From Thermoguttaceae bacterium (GTDB lineage: Bacteria; Planctomycetota; Planctomycetia; Pirellulales; Thermoguttaceae): DNA of 64,000 nt. Below are positions 53,126 through 63,377 of this stretch, in pieces. The notes beneath the pieces were generated by a model, which was not told the DNA's origin, did no database searches, and saw nothing but the letters and a program-made list of their open reading frames with translations. Where the stretch lies: contig JAFRFG010000020.1 of NCBI GenBank assembly GCA_017434455.1, positions 124,001-188,000 on the forward strand. Direction: 5' to 3'. Positions within the stretch are counted from its first letter, which is position 1. Each line of letters begins with the position of its first letter. The position numbers and the translations under genes are program-made.

Positions 53126-55573
53126 TCAGCGGATCGCGATCCCCGCGTCTTTGAGGAAACCAAGCATCTTGTTGTGGAAGCCGTCGATCTCCTCTCCCGA
53201 AAGGGTATGGTCCTTGGCGCCGATAAGGAATCGGAACGAGTAGCTCGCCATCCCCGGTTCCATCCCCTTCCCCTTATAGGAGGTGAGGAACTCACGCGAC
53301 AGAAGCAGTGGGTCGCTGAACTGGTCGAGTTTGGCGGCGAGTTTCTCGTATCCGTCGGCCAGCGGCCAGACCAGCGAGAAATCCTGCCACGATCCGGGGA
53401 ACCGCGGAAGATCACGCAGATGAACCTCGGGATAGAGATCCCCCCGGAACTGATCGAGCGCCAGCTCGAACCAGACGATCATCCCCCCCTCGGGAATCAG
53501 GGCGCTGAGGAGCTCTTTGCCGGCTACCCCCAGGGCGCCGATGACCTTCCCCTCTTGGCGGATCTCGACCCATTCCCCTTCACGCTGCCAGGGCGTCGGC
53601 TCGCCGCGGCCGGCGGCAAACTCGATCGGCGCGGTATCGCGGGCGTAAAGGGCGCCGAGGTCCTCGATCGCCGCCTTAATTTCAAGGTAGTGCTCCTCCG
53701 GGGTACGGCCCGAAGCCAGATAGCTCACGCCGGCTAAGCGGGGGAGTTCCAGGCACTTATCGGCACTGTCCTGGCAGGGGGTCTTGTCGTCGATATCCCC
53801 CTTCGGGAGATAGACCCTCCCCAGCTCAAAACAGCGGAAGGCGTCCATCAGCGGACGATTCTTCGGAACCAAGGCCAAAAGATTCGGAATCAAGGTGATC
53901 CGAAGCCGCGACTCCGGCTGCGCCGCCGGGTTGGCGAGTGTCAGGGTCGGACCCGGCTCGTAACCGATCTTCTTGAGGAAAATGTCGTTGAACCAGCCGT
54001 AGTTGTGAACCTCGCAGAAACCGTAGGCGGCGGCCAGAAGACGACGGGCTTTGTGCTCCATCCGAATCGATTTCTCGACGAAGAGAGGCCGCATCGGCAT
54101 GGCGGGCATCACCGGCGGGACATTATCGAACCCGTAAAGACGCATCACCTCTTCGACGATATCTTCGGGGATCGAAATATCCTTGGCGCTGCGGAACGGA
54201 GGAACACCGACCGTCAGGACACCGTCAGCGTCGAAGTCGGCCTGAAAACCGATGGAACGGAGGATCGAGGTGACCGTATCGTTCGAGTAATCGATCCCCG
54301 CCAGGGCGTTGAGCCGCCCGGGAGGAAGGGTGATCGTCCGGATCGAGTCGGCCAAATCCCCCGCCATCGAGAAGCGGGACTCAACGTGAAAAACGGTCCC
54401 CGAATCGGCCAGAAGCCGGAGAATACGTCGTGTGGCGACTTTGACGTTTGCCGGCGGCTGACTCTTCTCGTAACGCTGCGAGGCGTCGGTTCGAAGATCG
54501 AGCCGCTGGGCGGTCTGTCGGATGCGAAGCGCCGTGAAATTCGCCGACTCCAAGACGATCCGGGTCGTCGTGTCGGTCACCTCGGTCGCCAGCCCCCCCA
54601 TGATCCCCGCGATAGCGACCGGCACGCGGGTACCGTCGGGGCGGTCGTCGCAGATCATCATATCTTCGGGGATCATCTTTCGCTCGACCGAATCTAAGGT
54701 GACGAACGTCCCCTCTTTGCCCATCGGCGCGACGCAAATCCCCGAGACGGTGTCGGCGTCGAAAGCGTGGGTCGGCTGGCCGAGTTCCAAACTGACGTAG
54801 TTCGTCAGGTCGACCAGCAGGTTGTACGTTCTTTGTCCCAGGGCGTGCAGACGCCGCTGCATCACCACCGGCGAGGGGATATTCACACTGCCGGCCGTCA
54901 CGCCGAAGCGCAGCGCCGAGTAGCAGAGGCAGTTGGCGTCTTCAATCTTGACGGGATAAAGGGGAAGCGATCCGAACTGATCGACGTCGTAAAGCGGCAG
55001 TTCCTTAAGGGGACGGCCGAAGATCGCCGACAGCTCACGTGCGAAACCGTAATGCCCCCACAGGTCGGGACGGTGGGTGAGAGACTTATTGTCGATCTCG
55101 ATGAGCGTATCGGTCTCGGGAATCAGATCCGAAAGCGGGGTACCCGCGGGAACATCGGTCGGGAGCTCGAAGAGGATCTCGTGCCAGGCCGAAAGTCCCA
55201 GCTCAGCGGCGCTGCAGAGGATTCCCTCGCTCGGATGGCCGGCCATAGTGGTCGACTCAATTTTTTTATCCCCCAACGTGGTTCCGGCCGGCGCGAAGAC
55301 AACCGTCTTTCCGAGCGCGGCGTTCGCAGCGCCGCAGACGGTCGGATAGGTTCGGTTCCCGCAGTCGACCACACAGCGCGTGAGCGTCTTTTCACCGGAA
55401 GTGATCTTTTCGGCCTCGATAATTTTGCCGACCAGCGGTCCGTTGACGAAACGGTGAATCGTCTCAAACCCTTCCACTTCCGCCGTTGCCATAGTGAGGC
55501 GATCGGCAATCACCGCGGGATCAAGCCCGCTGAGGTCAACAAAATCGGAAATCCAATCGAGTGAAATAAACAC
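53126..55573 (-). CDS. pheT: Phenylalanyl-tRNA synthetase beta subunit
   Basis: This 815-residue protein pairs with PheS to charge tRNA-Phe. It has the N-terminal SLDWISDFVDLS start, an OB-fold EMAP-like domain, the B3/B4 editing region, the B5 motif, and a C-terminal anticodon-binding FDX-ACB domain (LRDLPRFPGSWQDFSLVWPL). The start is GTG 55573 with GAGGA upstream. Unusually it is not next to pheS: a 3.6-kb gene and a strong terminator lie between them. Confidence 0.95.
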   Translation of the reverse strand: MFISLDWISDFVDLSGLDPAVIADRLTMATAEVEGFETIHRFVNGPLVGKIIEAEKITSGEKTLTRCVVDCGNRTYPTVCGAANAALGKTVVFAPAGTTLGDKKIESTTMAGHPSEGILCSAAELGLSAWHEILFELPTDVPAGTPLSDLIPETDTLIEIDNKSLTHRPDLWGHYGFARELSAIFGRPLKELPLYDVDQFGSLPLYPVKIEDANCLCYSALRFGVTAGSVNIPSPVVMQRRLHALGQRTYNLLVDLTNYVSLELGQPTHAFDADTVSGICVAPMGKEGTFVTLDSVERKMIPEDMMICDDRPDGTRVPVAIAGIMGGLATEVTDTTTRIVLESANFTALRIRQTAQRLDLRTDASQRYEKSQPPANVKVATRRILRLLADSGTVFHVESRFSMAGDLADSIRTITLPPGRLNALAGIDYSNDTVTSILRSIGFQADFDADGVLTVGVPPFRSAKDISIPEDIVEEVMRLYGFDNVPPVMPAMPMRPLFVEKSIRMEHKARRLLAAAYGFCEVHNYGWFNDIFLKKIGYEPGPTLTLANPAAQPESRLRITLIPNLLALVPKNRPLMDAFRCFELGRVYLPKGDIDDKTPCQDSADKCLELPRLAGVSYLASGRTPEEHYLEIKAAIEDLGALYARDTAPIEFAAGRGEPTPWQREGEWVEIRQEGKVIGALGVAGKELLSALIPEGGMIVWFELALDQFRGDLYPEVHLRDLPRFPGSWQDFSLVWPLADGYEKLAAKLDQFSDPLLLSREFLTSYKGKGMEPGMASYSFRFLIGAKDHTLSGEEIDGFHNKMLGFLKDAGIAIR

Positions 55574-55704: not shown

Positions 55705-58700
55705 TTAGCGATGTCCGCCGCCGTGACCACCGGGGCCGCCGCTATGGCCGCCGGGACCTCCCATCGGGCGACCGCCGCCGGGACCACCAGGGCCCCCCAT
55801 CGGGCGACCGCCGCCGGGACCGCCGGGTCCGCCCATCGACCGACCACCGCCGGGACCACCCATACTGCCGCCCATCGGGGGACGGCCGCCGCCCATGGAA
55901 CCCATCGAACGGCCGCCGCCGGGACCACTGGGACCACCCATACTGCCGCTCATCGGGGGACGGCCGCCGCCCATGGAACCCATCGAACGGCCGCCGCCCA
56001 TTGAATCGATCGAGGGGCCTCTGCCCATCGAACCCATCGAACGGCCGCCGCCCATTGAATCGATCGAGGGGCCCCTGCCCATCGAACCCATTGAACGGCC
56101 GCCGCCCATTGAATCGATCGAGGGCCCCCTGCCCATCGAACCCATCGAACGGCCGCCATTGATCGAATCAACCGAGGGGCCGCTGACCATCGAATCTATC
56201 GGGCGGCTGCGCCACACTGGGCGGCCGGAATTCGTCGAACCGCCGAGCATCCCGCGCGAGAGGGATCCGGTATCACTTGGACGGCTGACCGACATCGCTC
56301 GGTTGCTCCCTGAGCTGCCTGCGCTGAACCGGTCACCGGTGAAGGAATCCCCGCCGAGGGAGCGGAAGGTCGCGCCGCCGTCAGTGATCGATGCCGAAGC
56401 GCCGTCGGGCCTTCCGTGGCCGGTGCCACCGCGCGGAGCGCCGTTAACACGGCCCGGGCTGCCACCTGGCCGCTGGCCGCCGACAGGGCCGCCCGAACCG
56501 GTGCGAGAATGTCCCCGTTCCATCGCGCCGCCCGGGTTACCGCCACTTCTGCCGCTTTTGATATGACCGGGATCGCCCAAGCGCTGACTACCGGCAGGAC
56601 CGTCTGAGCCGGTACGCGGACGGGGACCACGAATCAAGCCGTCTGAATTACCGCCGCTGCGGCCGCTTTTGATACGACCGGGGTTATCGCGCTGCCCACC
56701 GACAGGACTGTCCGAACCGGTGCGCGGACGAGCTTCTCCCATCTTGCCGGCCGGATTTTCACCACCGCGGCCACTTCTAATACGGCCGGGATTATCTCCC
56801 GAGGGCTTAGCATCGGTCGTGTTCCCCAGATCGGTACGAGACCGGGGCCCCTCGATCTTGCCGGCCGAAAGATCTCCACCGCCGCCGTTGATACGGCCCG
56901 GGTTGTCGCCGAGAGCCGCTTTGCCGCGCGAGGCGCCGTTGCTGCCGGGACGTTTAGTCGTTCCGCCGCCGCGGTGAGTCGAGATACCCGGACGAGAGGG
57001 GACAGAACCGTCCGATCCGCCGATCTTCGTATCGCCGCGAGCACCGCCAGGACGATTCCCCGGACCAAAGTTCCCGGTACCTTTACCGCGGGGACGACTG
57101 CCCGGAGCAAAGCTCCCGCCCCCCTTTCCATCGGGACGATAGCCACCGGGGATATAACGGCCGTTGGAATCACGCCCGCCGGGCCTGGCGCCGGGCCCCT
57201 TATCGGCCCCCTTGCTATCGAGCCCTTTGCCGGGTTCCTTATCGGAGTCGCTTCCGCCGGGGCCTTTGCCGGAACCAGCACCGGGACCAGCGGGGCCTTT
57301 GCCAGTATCACCGGGGCCTTTGCCTGGGTCAGCACCGGGACCATCAGGGCTTTTCCCTGGACCGCCGGGTCTTTTGCCGGGGCCAAAACCGGGAACACCG
57401 GGGCGTTTGCCAGGACCGGCGCCGGAACCACCAGGTCTCTTGCCGGGATCGCCGGAGCCTTTATCTAAATCTGTGCCGGGACCATCAGGGCCTTTCCCGG
57501 GATCACTGGGTCTTTTGCCAGGGCCAAAACCGGGACCACCGGGGCGTTTGCCGGGATCATTGGGTCTTTTGCCAGGGCCAAAACCGGGACCACCGGGGCG
57601 TTTGCCGGAATCAGCGGGTCTTTTGTCAGGGCCAAAACCGGGACCACCGGGGCGTTTGCCGGGACCGACGCCGGGACCACCAGGGCGTTTGCCGGGATCA
57701 ACACCGGGACCGCCGGGTCCCTTGCCAGGACCAGCACTGGGACCGCTAGGTCCCTTACCGGGCAGAATACTGTTCCGGCTGGGTCCCTTACTGGGGCCAA
57801 CACCAGGATAACGACCGGGACCATCAGGCCTGCCGTAACCACCGGGGCCGCCGCGATGGCCCGGTGCGGGACCGTGGTGAGGCATTCGGTAGATTCGGTC
57901 ATGGTATCCGCCGTGATCCCAACCGCGATGGGACCAGGGGTGGCGATACCAGGGACGATCCCAATGTCGGTACCACGGACGGAAGTCGTAACCGATATGC
58001 AGACCGATTCCGAACCCGACGGCTAACCCAAGGTGGAAACCGTACCAGGGGCGGTTCCAGTAGGGTACATAGGGACCATAGCCGTAGTACCAGGGGTCGA
58101 AGTACGGATACGGGACGAACCAGGTGACACCGCAGCCATACCATGGACGGTAGTACCAGCAGCGGGGGTAGAAAAGCCGCCAGCAGGGGACATAGGGATC
58201 GATCGTCATGTAGTAGGGAGCGATGTACTGGCAGCAGGTGCAGCCGCCATCAGCCATTTCGGACTGTTCGATGTACTCAACAATCCGCTCTTCGGGGAGC
58301 GGATCGGTCACTTCGCTTTCGACGATCACCGTCGATTTTTCACGCTTCGCCTTGACATCCTTCGGAATTTCCTTGAGAAATTCCTTCTGGAGAGGATGCT
58401 CCCCGAGCCAATGGACACGGCCGGAAACATTGTCAACCATCGCCGCGACCAACTTGAGCTGTTTGTTCCTGATCAGGTCACAGGCGGCATCAGACTCACT
58501 GAGGATCGTCTCGACCGACTGCCAGGCGATCGCTTCGGAGACAACTGTGATCATGTCGTCATCGGACATGTCGGGATTAGCCGCCTTGGCACGAGCCACC
58601 GCCGGACCAACCAGCGTGTAAAGAAGGACATCGTCATCGACGGGTCTGTTGTTGGTGAATGTCTTAGGCGGGTTTTTCTTAGCGGCGGCGAGCTGTTTTT

Positions 58701-59316
58701 CGGCGATCCCCTTGAGACGGTCGTAGTTCTCGACCATGTATCGGACGTCGGGATTCGGATAATCGGTCAGAATCACCGCCAGAGGGGTCCGAAGATTGAC
58801 AATGCCGTACTCAAAATCGTCCATCTCTTCGGCGGTACAGACACCGGCACGCAGAGGAACCTGATAGACATCCCCCTCGTCCAAACCGAAGATATCGGTC
58901 GGAAGGGAGGCACCGTCGGAGTAGAGAACCGTCACCGCGGGGAAACGATCGTCGTCGGTCGACAGAACCGGGAGATCGTCGGCTTCGGCCGCATCGCCGA
59001 TCACCTCGGCGTTTCCGGCGGCCAGCAGGCGAAGAACCGATTCGGGTGTCAGAACCGACGGCACTGCCGCGGCCGCGTCATCCGAAGAACGCTTGATCGT
59101 AACTGTCTTGGTGGAAGGGATCGGATCCTCGGTGGAGAGAATCTGTCTGGAGTCCGTCCCACTGGCCGGAACGGTACTGCTTTCGGAAAACGGCATCGTC
59201 AGAAGGATTTCGTCGTCGGCGAGCGCCGCCGCGAAGGGGATGAACAAAACGAACATCCCGAGTAACCAACGAAACCCCTCACGTCGGAAGAACCCATCGC
59301 GTCGGAAGATCTTCAT
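55705..59316 (-). CDS. Secreted carbonic-anhydrase-like pseudoenzyme with long Gly/Pro repeats
   Basis: This 1203-residue protein begins with a signal peptide (residues 1-33). Residues about 92-306 read as a beta-carbonic anhydrase: SVLRLLAAGN, VLYSDGASLPTDIFGLDEGD (family CSDSRVPPExIFxxxxGD), FEYGIVNLRTPLAVIL, GPAVARAKAANP and VSGRVHWLGEHP. All three zinc ligands are changed: Cys to Tyr132, His to Asp185, Cys to Asn188. Residues 358-480 are rich in Trp, Tyr, Cys and Pro. The rest is repeats: GPGKRPGGPG units (about 500-700), five units of about 37 residues (about 780-970), 18-residue MGSMGRGPSIDSMGG units (about 1040-1110), and a Gly-rich tail. ATG 59316 has a perfect AAGGAGG. It is probably an extracellular or envelope structural protein. 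Confidence 0.8.
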   Translation of the reverse strand: MKIFRRDGFFRREGFRWLLGMFVLFIPFAAALADDEILLTMPFSESSTVPASGTDSRQILSTEDPIPSTKTVTIKRSSDDAAAAVPSVLTPESVLRLLAAGNAEVIGDAAEADDLPVLSTDDDRFPAVTVLYSDGASLPTDIFGLDEGDVYQVPLRAGVCTAEEMDDFEYGIVNLRTPLAVILTDYPNPDVRYMVENYDRLKGIAEKQLAAAKKNPPKTFTNNRPVDDDVLLYTLVGPAVARAKAANPDMSDDDMITVVSEAIAWQSVETILSESDAACDLIRNKQLKLVAAMVDNVSGRVHWLGEHPLQKEFLKEIPKDVKAKREKSTVIVESEVTDPLPEERIVEYIEQSEMADGGCTCCQYIAPYYMTIDPYVPCWRLFYPRCWYYRPWYGCGVTWFVPYPYFDPWYYGYGPYVPYWNRPWYGFHLGLAVGFGIGLHIGYDFRPWYRHWDRPWYRHPWSHRGWDHGGYHDRIYRMPHHGPAPGHRGGPGGYGRPDGPGRYPGVGPSKGPSRNSILPGKGPSGPSAGPGKGPGGPGVDPGKRPGGPGVGPGKRPGGPGFGPDKRPADSGKRPGGPGFGPGKRPNDPGKRPGGPGFGPGKRPSDPGKGPDGPGTDLDKGSGDPGKRPGGSGAGPGKRPGVPGFGPGKRPGGPGKSPDGPGADPGKGPGDTGKGPAGPGAGSGKGPGGSDSDKEPGKGLDSKGADKGPGARPGGRDSNGRYIPGGYRPDGKGGGSFAPGSRPRGKGTGNFGPGNRPGGARGDTKIGGSDGSVPSRPGISTHRGGGTTKRPGSNGASRGKAALGDNPGRINGGGGDLSAGKIEGPRSRTDLGNTTDAKPSGDNPGRIRSGRGGENPAGKMGEARPRTGSDSPVGGQRDNPGRIKSGRSGGNSDGLIRGPRPRTGSDGPAGSQRLGDPGHIKSGRSGGNPGGAMERGHSRTGSGGPVGGQRPGGSPGRVNGAPRGGTGHGRPDGASASITDGGATFRSLGGDSFTGDRFSAGSSGSNRAMSVSRPSDTGSLSRGMLGGSTNSGRPVWRSRPIDSMVSGPSVDSINGGRSMGSMGRGPSIDSMGGGRSMGSMGRGPSIDSMGGGRSMGSMGRGPSIDSMGGGRSMGSMGGGRPPMSGSMGGPSGPGGGRSMGSMGGGRPPMGGSMGGPGGGRSMGGPGGPGGGRPMGGPGGPGGGRPMGGPGGHSGGPGGHGGGHR
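55985..56200 (-). repeat. 54-bp in-frame tandem repeat within the giant gene
   Basis: Copies start at 55985, 56039, 56093 and 56147 on the plus strand, exactly 54 bp apart. The first three are almost identical and the fourth is diverged. The unit encodes 18 residues (GRSMGSMGRGPSIDSMGG on the minus strand), so length changes keep the frame. Not a CRISPR array: there are no spacers. Confidence 0.9.
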
Positions 59317-59579: not shown

Positions 59580-60593
59580 CTAAAGCACGGCGAACTGCTT
59601 ATTGAAGCGCAAATCGCCGGCGTTGAGTGTTCGGATATCACGGATCCCGTACTTCATCATCGCCAGGCGCGTCAGGCCGATGCCAAACGCGAACCCGCTG
59701 TATTTTGCCGGGTCGATCCCGCCGTGACGCAGTACCTCGGGGTGAACCAATCCGCAGGGGATCAGCTCGATCCAGCCGTCGCCGCAGGTCGAGCACCCCT
59801 TCCCTCCGCACAGGAGGCAATTCAAATCGAGCTCAAAGCCCGGTTCGACGAAGGGGAAGAACCCCGGACGCAGACGAACCTTCACGTCGCGTCGGAAGAC
59901 CTCGCTTAAAAGGGTCTTCATCACGGCAATGAGGTTGGCCACCGAGATGTTTTCATCGACCACCAATCCCTCGCACTGATAGAAGGTGTTCTCGTGGCTT
60001 GGGTCAACCGCCTCGTAACGGAAGCAGCGCCCGGGGAAGACCGCCCGGATCGGCGCGCCGAAGCGCAGAAGCGTTCGAACCTGGTTGGCGGAGGTGTGGG
60101 TCCGGAGGATCAGGTTGTTCTTCAGCCAGAAGGTATCCTGCATGTCACGCGCCGGGTGATCGTGCGGGATATTCAGCGCCTCGAAACAAAAATACTCCGA
60201 CTCGACCTCGGGCCCGGCCAGTACCGAGAACCCCATCCCCTGAAAGATATCTTCCAGTTCCATCTGGGTGAGCGTGATCGGGTGCAGCGCCCCCAGGCGG
60301 CGTCCGGCCCCCGGAGCGGTGAGATCCAGCGCGGACGCCTTCTTCTTTGGCGCCGCGGCGCCGGCTTGCTGACTCGCCTTTTGAATCGCCTCCGTGGCGA
60401 AATTCTTCAGCTGGTTGAGCCGGATCCCGAACTGTTTTTTCTCTTCGGGCGAAAAACGGCTAAAGTCGGTCCCCTTGGCCAGCGTGGTGATACACCCCTT
60501 GCGGCCGAGATACTGGACACGGATCTGCTCAACGTCGGCCGCGCTCTTGGCATTGGCTAAGTCACGTTCCAACCGTTCTTTGATTTCCTGCAC
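59580..60593 (-). CDS. pheS: Phenylalanyl-tRNA synthetase alpha subunit
   Basis: This 337-residue catalytic subunit shows the N-terminal coiled coil, motif 1 (GSVLA-like GFSVLAGPEVESEYFCF), DHPARDMQDTFWL, motif 2 (RTHTSANQVR, then FRYEAVDPSHENTFYQCEG), and motif 3 GFAFGIGLTRLAMMKYGI. An inserted CLLCGGKGCSTCG knuckle near residue 260 is a feature of some PheS. The start is GTG 60593 after TGGAGAAAG. It leads the minus-strand block, followed after about 260 bp by the giant repeat gene instead of pheT. Confidence 0.95.
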   Translation of the reverse strand: MQEIKERLERDLANAKSAADVEQIRVQYLGRKGCITTLAKGTDFSRFSPEEKKQFGIRLNQLKNFATEAIQKASQQAGAAAPKKKASALDLTAPGAGRRLGALHPITLTQMELEDIFQGMGFSVLAGPEVESEYFCFEALNIPHDHPARDMQDTFWLKNNLILRTHTSANQVRTLLRFGAPIRAVFPGRCFRYEAVDPSHENTFYQCEGLVVDENISVANLIAVMKTLLSEVFRRDVKVRLRPGFFPFVEPGFELDLNCLLCGGKGCSTCGDGWIELIPCGLVHPEVLRHGGIDPAKYSGFAFGIGLTRLAMMKYGIRDIRTLNAGDLRFNKQFAVL

Positions 60594-62297: not shown

Positions 62298-63377
62298 GTG
62301 GCAGAGGCGATAGTACTGTTCTCGGGCGGACTGGATTCGATTCTGGCGGTCCGTATTCTTCAGGCGCAGGACATCGGCGTCACGGGGCTGAACATCGTCA
62401 CCCCTTTCCACGACAATTCCGAGGAATCATGCCGGCTCGGCCGCGATCTCGGCATCGAGGTGCTGGTCGAAACGCTCGCCAACGACTACACGGCGATGCT
62501 GAAAAAACCGCGCTGGGGATTCGGCAAAGCGGTGAATCCCTGTATCGATTGCCGAACGATGATGCTTCAGCGTGCCGGTGAGGTAATGATTCGCCGCGGC
62601 GCCGATTTTGTCGCCACCGGTGAGGTGGTCGGTCAGCGTCCTCACAGTCAGATGATGCACCAGCTGGCGCTCATCGCCAGTCAGTCGGGCCTGGCCGGCA
62701 AGCTCCTGCGCCCGTTAAGCGCCAAGGTTCTCCCGATCACCGAACCGGAACAGTCCGGTTTGGTCTGCCGAGAGCGCCTTTTTTCCTGCACCGGGCGGGG
62801 GCGAAGCGGCCTCATCGCTCTGGCCCGCAGCCGCTTTGGGGTCGAGAAAATCCCGCAGCCGTCCACCGGCTGTCAGCTGTGCGAGCAATCGTTCGCCCCG
62901 CGCGTACGCGATATGCTCAAATACACCGAAAAACCGACCCTCTGGGACGCCCATGTACTCGCTTACGGCCGACATTTTCGGATCAGTCCCTCATGGAAGG
63001 CGGCGGTCGCCCGCCGTTTGGCCGACTGTCAGGCGCTCGTGGCACTGTTTGGGCGCGAAGACCGAACCGATTCCTTCCTTCTGGTCCCCGAAAACTTCAA
63101 CGGGCCGGCGGTTCTGGCCGTCAACGACGGTCCGCAGCGGGAGCCGAGCGACCGTATCCGAGCCATCTGCGCCGGTTTGCTGCTGCGGTTCGTCCGGGCC
63201 GATAAGCTCCCGGCCGAGGAACCGACCGCGACGCTCTTCGACTCCCCCGGTCACGGGACGATCATCACCTTAAAGCGTGACAGTGCGGCCGATGAATTGC
63301 CGATGATCGAACAGCGGCGCAAAAACCGACCGTCCCAAGATGCCGCGGACAACGAAACAAGCAACAACGAAACCTAA
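62298..63377 (+). CDS. PP-loop tRNA-thiolation-like protein (ThiI/MnmA-related)
   Basis: This 359-residue protein has an N-terminal PP-loop ATPase domain (IVLFSGGLDSILAVRIL) as in ThiI and MnmA, with a CxxC pair (NPCIDCRTMM) and ATGEVVGQRPHSQ in the middle. A second Cys pair (TGCQLCEQSF) follows, then a C-terminal region resembling the NFACT-R-type RNA-binding module. It probably adenylates a uridine in tRNA for sulfur insertion, but the exact modification cannot be told. The four Cys could hold a metal or iron-sulfur cluster. It starts at GTG 62298 and is followed after 33 bp by purD. Confidence 0.75.
   Translation: MAEAIVLFSGGLDSILAVRILQAQDIGVTGLNIVTPFHDNSEESCRLGRDLGIEVLVETLANDYTAMLKKPRWGFGKAVNPCIDCRTMMLQRAGEVMIRRGADFVATGEVVGQRPHSQMMHQLALIASQSGLAGKLLRPLSAKVLPITEPEQSGLVCRERLFSCTGRGRSGLIALARSRFGVEKIPQPSTGCQLCEQSFAPRVRDMLKYTEKPTLWDAHVLAYGRHFRISPSWKAAVARRLADCQALVALFGREDRTDSFLLVPENFNGPAVLAVNDGPQREPSDRIRAICAGLLLRFVRADKLPAEEPTATLFDSPGHGTIITLKRDSAADELPMIEQRRKNRPSQDAADNETSNNET

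Follow-up and report, generated by a model that had tools for sequence, protein, structure and literature searches.

Beta-carbonic anhydrases (beta-CAs) are dimers or higher oligomers, and COS and CS2 hydrolases arose within their fold. In cyanobacteria, the protein CcmM organises Rubisco. Carbonic anhydrase (CA) domains without activity are already known in the alpha class, with the dead CA domain of vertebrate CA VIII (PMC13253706), in the gamma class, with the gamma-CA-like domain of CcmM that is inactive in some cyanobacteria (PMC12646314), and in one half of CsoSCA. In this last protein, found in the alpha-carboxysome, the C-terminal half is a dead beta-CA domain whose zinc site is lost and which lies beside a regulatory RuBP site (PMC11086599). 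The nacrein-like shell proteins join a CA domain to low-complexity Gly-X-Asn repeats, and are reported to keep their activity (PMC4066178, PMC3439604). A search of the open-access literature found no description of a stand-alone or secreted beta-CA pseudoenzyme family, and nothing on catalytically inactive carbonic anhydrases in planctomycetes.

The gene described here lies in a 64,000-nucleotide stretch of DNA from a Thermoguttaceae bacterium, the whole of which is called the window. Its protein is predicted to consist of a signal peptide, a linker, a pseudo-carbonic-anhydrase (pseudo-CA) domain, a Trp/Tyr-rich domain and a long repetitive tail, arranged as follows:

55705..59316, minus strand: whole gene, 1203 amino acids, ATG start at 59316, stop included; orthologues are intact
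59218..59316, minus strand: putative signal peptide, residues 1-33, with a basic N-region, hydrophobic WLLGMFVLFIPFAAALA and a likely cut between ALA and DD, as read from the sequence
58363..59061, minus strand: pseudo-beta-carbonic-anhydrase domain, residues 86-318 (about 235 residues), placed by homology and model
58909..58923, minus strand: former CSDSR motif, Tyr132-Ser-Asp134-Gly-Ala136, with the Cys column deleted, the Asp kept and the Arg lost
58753..58764, minus strand: former HxxC motif, Asp185-Tyr-Pro-Asn188 replacing His-x-x-Cys in the alignment
58642..58719, minus strand: clade-specific insertion after the HxxC helix, about residues 200-225, absent from catalytic relatives in the alignment
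57844..58242, minus strand: Trp/Tyr/Pro-rich domain, residues 359-491 (about 130 residues), found only in the pseudo-CA protein family
55708..57843, minus strand: Gly/Pro/Ser/Arg low-complexity tail with tandem repeats, residues 492-1203 (712 residues)

The Sec-type, signal-peptide-like N-terminus predicts that the protein is probably exported, and the N-termini of the orthologues read in the same way. We favour, with moderate confidence, a secreted and non-enzymatic protein in which the dead beta-CA fold acts as the oligomerising or binding head of an envelope or matrix protein. Like CsoSCA, it would then hold a beta-CA domain that has no zinc site and is kept for another role. In CsoSCA, however, a live catalytic domain is part of the same chain, and the protein lies in the cytosolic carboxysome. 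The window protein has a single beta-CA-like domain and the window's genome has no PF00484 match, so this is not a fusion of the CsoSCA type. CcmM is an analogue as a scaffold, with an inactive N-terminal CA domain and a repetitive C-terminal part, but it belongs to the gamma class, which has another fold, carries Rubisco-binding repeats and is cytosolic. Instead of the gamma-CA left-handed beta-helix and Rubisco-small-subunit-like repeats of that type, homology and model give a beta-CA domain. The nacrein-like proteins and CA VIII differ more, being animal proteins of the alpha class with no homology to the window protein.

The initial annotation had proposed a beta-CA resemblance along 58399-59043 of the minus strand (residues 92-306 of the 1203). 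In this region the window protein has LRLLAAGN at residue 95, YSDGA at 132, DYPN at 185 and, at the end, WLGEHP at 303. Sequence comparison bears the proposal out, confirming that the domain descends from the beta-CAs (PF00484), with a resemblance far beyond chance. With residues 1-355 as the query, phmmer retrieves catalytic CSDSR/HTxCGAV beta-CAs of the same bacterial family: L010 (E 4.2e-26), L017 (2.4e-15), L011 (1.6e-13) and others more weakly. These three planctomycete proteins are secreted catalytic beta-CAs with CSDSR and GHTxCGAV motifs, homologous over the whole domain and also starting with signal-peptide-like N-termini. Aligned by hhalign, a profile of 21 relatives matches a profile of 19 catalytic beta-CAs with an E-value of 1.6e-38 over 209 columns, and 19 of the 21 family members match PF00484 (best 2.5e-9). 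In the PDB, the family profile reaches Mycobacterium tuberculosis Rv3588c (2a5v/1ym3) at 1.7e-5; this nearest PDB relative has the same fold as the model described below. The window protein alone has no carbonic-anhydrase match in Pfam, NCBIfam or PDB sequences, and beta-CA descent explains a gene left blank by Pfam and NCBIfam in the window's genome. A weak DUF592 match (E 0.065) was rejected, as it misses its cut-off and falls outside the core of the domain; apart from it, the remainder of the chain is without a Pfam match.

Structure prediction, which the initial annotation had suggested as a check along with profile comparison, gives the same answer. An AlphaFold2 model (m7f064faf8c41) was built from the window domain, its copy in RUG14274 and five catalytic beta-CAs from viral contigs. 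With these enzyme rows, its pLDDT is 78 and its pTM 0.77, and the structural matches listed for it are beta-CAs and the related COS hydrolase (3vqj), with Z-scores up to 21.8 (2a5v, over 188 residues). Built from the window protein and its near-copy alone, the model fails, at a pLDDT of 39. The predicted beta-CA fold is supported mainly by homology, and the model agrees while leaning on the catalytic rows.

The active site was compared in an alignment of 54 domains, from 22 pseudo-CA orthologues and 32 catalytic relatives. All 32 relatives have Cys, Asp, Arg, His and Cys at the five key positions, whereas both zinc Cys and the catalytic Arg are absent from all 22 orthologues. The first Cys position holds Ser, Ala or Asn, except that the window protein and its near-copy have a deletion there. 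The Arg position has Pro, Thr, Lys or Ala (Ala136 in the window protein), and the second Cys position Ser or Asn (Asn188). The Asp of the Asp-Arg pair, Asp134 in the window protein, is kept in 21 of the 22 and is Glu in the other. The zinc His is kept in 16; it is replaced by Asp, Gln, Arg or Val (Asp185 in the window protein) in the window's genus and in a neighbour, G057, with which the genus groups in the tree. The loss of the zinc ligands claimed in the initial annotation thus stands for Asp185 in place of His, Asn188 in place of Cys, Ala136 in place of Arg and the lack of any Cys. Tyr132, however, is probably not the equivalent of the first Cys as had been thought, since it aligns with the residue that precedes it, where 95% of the pseudo-CA clade has Tyr in the 54-sequence alignment. 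At the Cys column the window protein has a deletion of one residue; the placement of this gap is uncertain by one residue, but in neither case is a Cys present. Losses fall within or next to the active-site motifs (Cys, Ser, Arg, Phe-Asp, Gly-Asn, Cys-Gly-Ala and the Asn at 263), whereas most of the positions that the two groups share lie away from the active site (Leu98, Gly101, Asn102, Glu169, Pro238, Ser275, Asp295 and Gly299). Outside the clade, partial loss of zinc ligands was sought in the order and phylum samples, where every other aligned beta-CA keeps C-D-R-H-C. Because 16 of the 22 retain the His while the window's genus and G057 lack it, decay appears to have been stepwise, with the alignment and tree indicating that the His was lost later than the Cys and Arg, in the window's lineage.

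A domain that lacks the zinc ligands and the Arg partner of the catalytic Asp cannot function as an ordinary beta-CA, and it would have neither CO2-hydrating activity nor zinc at the old site. An enzyme using an altered metal site, in which other residues bind the metal and act on CO2 or another substrate, is very improbable: a COS hydrolase is among the fold matches of the model, but no member retains either Cys or the Arg, and the domain shows no conserved set of Cys or His residues that would take their place. The main rival to a structural or polymer-binding envelope role is the binding of a ligand in the remodelled pocket, with its Tyr before the Cys position, its Asp134 and its Tyr-Pro-Ser/Asn replacing HxxC. 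The domain might then be a binding or sensing module for an anion such as bicarbonate, a sugar or another small ligand. This would fit the near-invariant, clade-specific Tyr132, Asn174, Tyr186 and Pro187, which are in or beside the former active-site motifs, as well as the conservation of the Asp. Residual ligand or anion binding is also possible because the zinc His and Asp remain in 16 of the 22 members. The Arg and the zinc ligands are nevertheless lost, including the His in the window's lineage, and no recognisable signalling domain is attached, so we consider this reading unlikely and retain that of an envelope or matrix protein.

Orthologues are present in 5 of the 7 genomes of the window's genus, 13 of the 20 of a second genus and all 4 of a third. 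Where genomes of the second and third genera are at least 90% complete with low contamination, the pseudo-CA is found every time (6/6). No orthologue was found outside the three genera in samples of 119 genomes of the family, 396 of the order and 392 of the phylum, and in these samples the clade scores at least 320 bits versus at most 75 bits for the rest. A scan of genome contigs gave a sole match, a near-identical copy of the window protein in the planctomycete MAG RUG14274 (L019). The 22 orthologues form one clade on a long branch, with a support of 100/100. Their frames are open and free of stops in 22 genomes, and dN/dS values of 0.009-0.215 in 11 orthologue pairs indicate that the family is under purifying selection and is being maintained. 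A decaying pseudogene or an assembly artefact is hardly credible in this light: missing catalytic residues are what decay typically produces, and the contigs of many relatives seem to be broken at the repetitive tail, but the open frames, the dN/dS well below 1, the constant architecture and the single clade across three genera largely refute it. The earlier suggestion that the beta-CA fold is kept finds its support here in the purifying selection, the constant architecture and the 22 orthologues, in addition to homology and a model that includes enzyme rows.

Taken with the tree, the alignment indicates an origin from a secreted beta-CA. In the simplest history, the two zinc Cys and the Arg disappeared a single time, in the common ancestor of the three planctomycete genera. 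The same lineage gained the insertion after the HxxC helix, the conserved Trp/Tyr-rich domain on the C-terminal side and a Gly/Pro/Arg tail of low complexity that is mostly basic. With the lost Cys, His and Arg, these gains set the window protein apart from catalytic beta-CAs. With one step removing the catalytic Cys and Arg, a second removing the His inside the clade, and live catalytic cousins in the same bacterial family, this would be a clean case of an enzyme turned structural or binding module.

The pseudo-CA might also be a regulator, either as a dead subunit in mixed oligomers with an active beta-CA or by regulating that enzyme or another periplasmic partner. This is a common pseudoenzyme logic, and in CsoSCA the dead half near the RuBP site regulates the live half (PMC11086599). 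Six genomes with the pseudo-CA do carry a catalytic PF00484 gene as well. However, a PF00484 gene is found in none of the seven genomes of the window's genus, five of which have the pseudo-CA. Across the family, 16 of the 22 pseudo-CA genomes, most of them incomplete, show no catalytic PF00484 gene, so mixed oligomers with an active beta-CA are unlikely to be the usual arrangement. These searches covered PF00484 and, in the window's genome, alpha-CAs, of which there is none. We therefore judge a regulatory role quite improbable, and the envelope or matrix protein remains the preferred reading.

As the initial annotation had suggested verifying in planctomycete genomes, the two domains do go together: the Trp/Tyr-rich domain follows the pseudo-CA domain in all 22 orthologues, and a search for it in the 119 family genomes returned the same 22 genes and no others. 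A 246-genome sample of the phylum gave only the window gene, and neither Pfam nor the PDB sequences gave a match. The tails vary in sequence but are alike in being rich in Gly, Pro and Arg; all are net basic except one, which is cut at a contig end. Many orthologues lie near contig ends (L064, L065, L066, L069, L070, L073 and L075-L080), which would be expected if the repetitive Gly/Pro tail interrupts metagenome assemblies, and the tail lengths at such ends are lower bounds.

A model can be proposed in which the beta-CA fold is kept for dimerising or oligomerising and for carrying the Trp/Tyr-rich domain and tail. The protein would then act as a multivalent head, placed either in the periplasm or at the outer surface, where the Trp/Tyr-rich domain and the flexible basic tail might contact envelope or extracellular polymers such as polysaccharide, peptidoglycan or other matrix proteins. 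More tentatively, these exported stand-alone pseudoenzymes could form the oligomeric, folded centre of an envelope or matrix polymer of planctomycetes that has not been described so far.

The genes pheS and pheT are usually adjacent. In the window, the pseudo-CA gene sits between pheS (59580-60593) and pheT (53126-55573), and the same order is found in G003 and G006 (L061, L062). A gene for an LptF/LptG-type permease adjoins the pseudo-CA gene in the window's genus; in the second genus, the neighbours, identified by eye, are a phosphomutase-like gene and leuS. The surroundings point to no operon or functional partner, since no neighbouring gene was seen to recur from one genus to another. Further along the window (62298-63377, plus strand), a gene resembles by eye a ThiI/MnmA-type tRNA-modifying enzyme and has a sub-threshold NFACT-R_2 match.

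Other beta-CA architectures were seen among the relatives. In G034 (L081:1907-3652), a 582-residue open frame read by eye encodes a catalytic secreted beta-CA followed in frame by an apparent alkaline-phosphatase/nucleotide-pyrophosphatase-type domain. Secreted tandem beta-CAs, with two catalytic-type domains per chain and intact CxDSR motifs in both, are encoded in G508 (L058:1429-2709, minus frame) and G525 (L100:1293-3200). Finally, a 1062-residue open frame in G584 (L085:1641-4826), also read by eye, fuses a secreted catalytic beta-CA to a part resembling a methyl-accepting chemotaxis receptor, a possible CO2/bicarbonate sensor.
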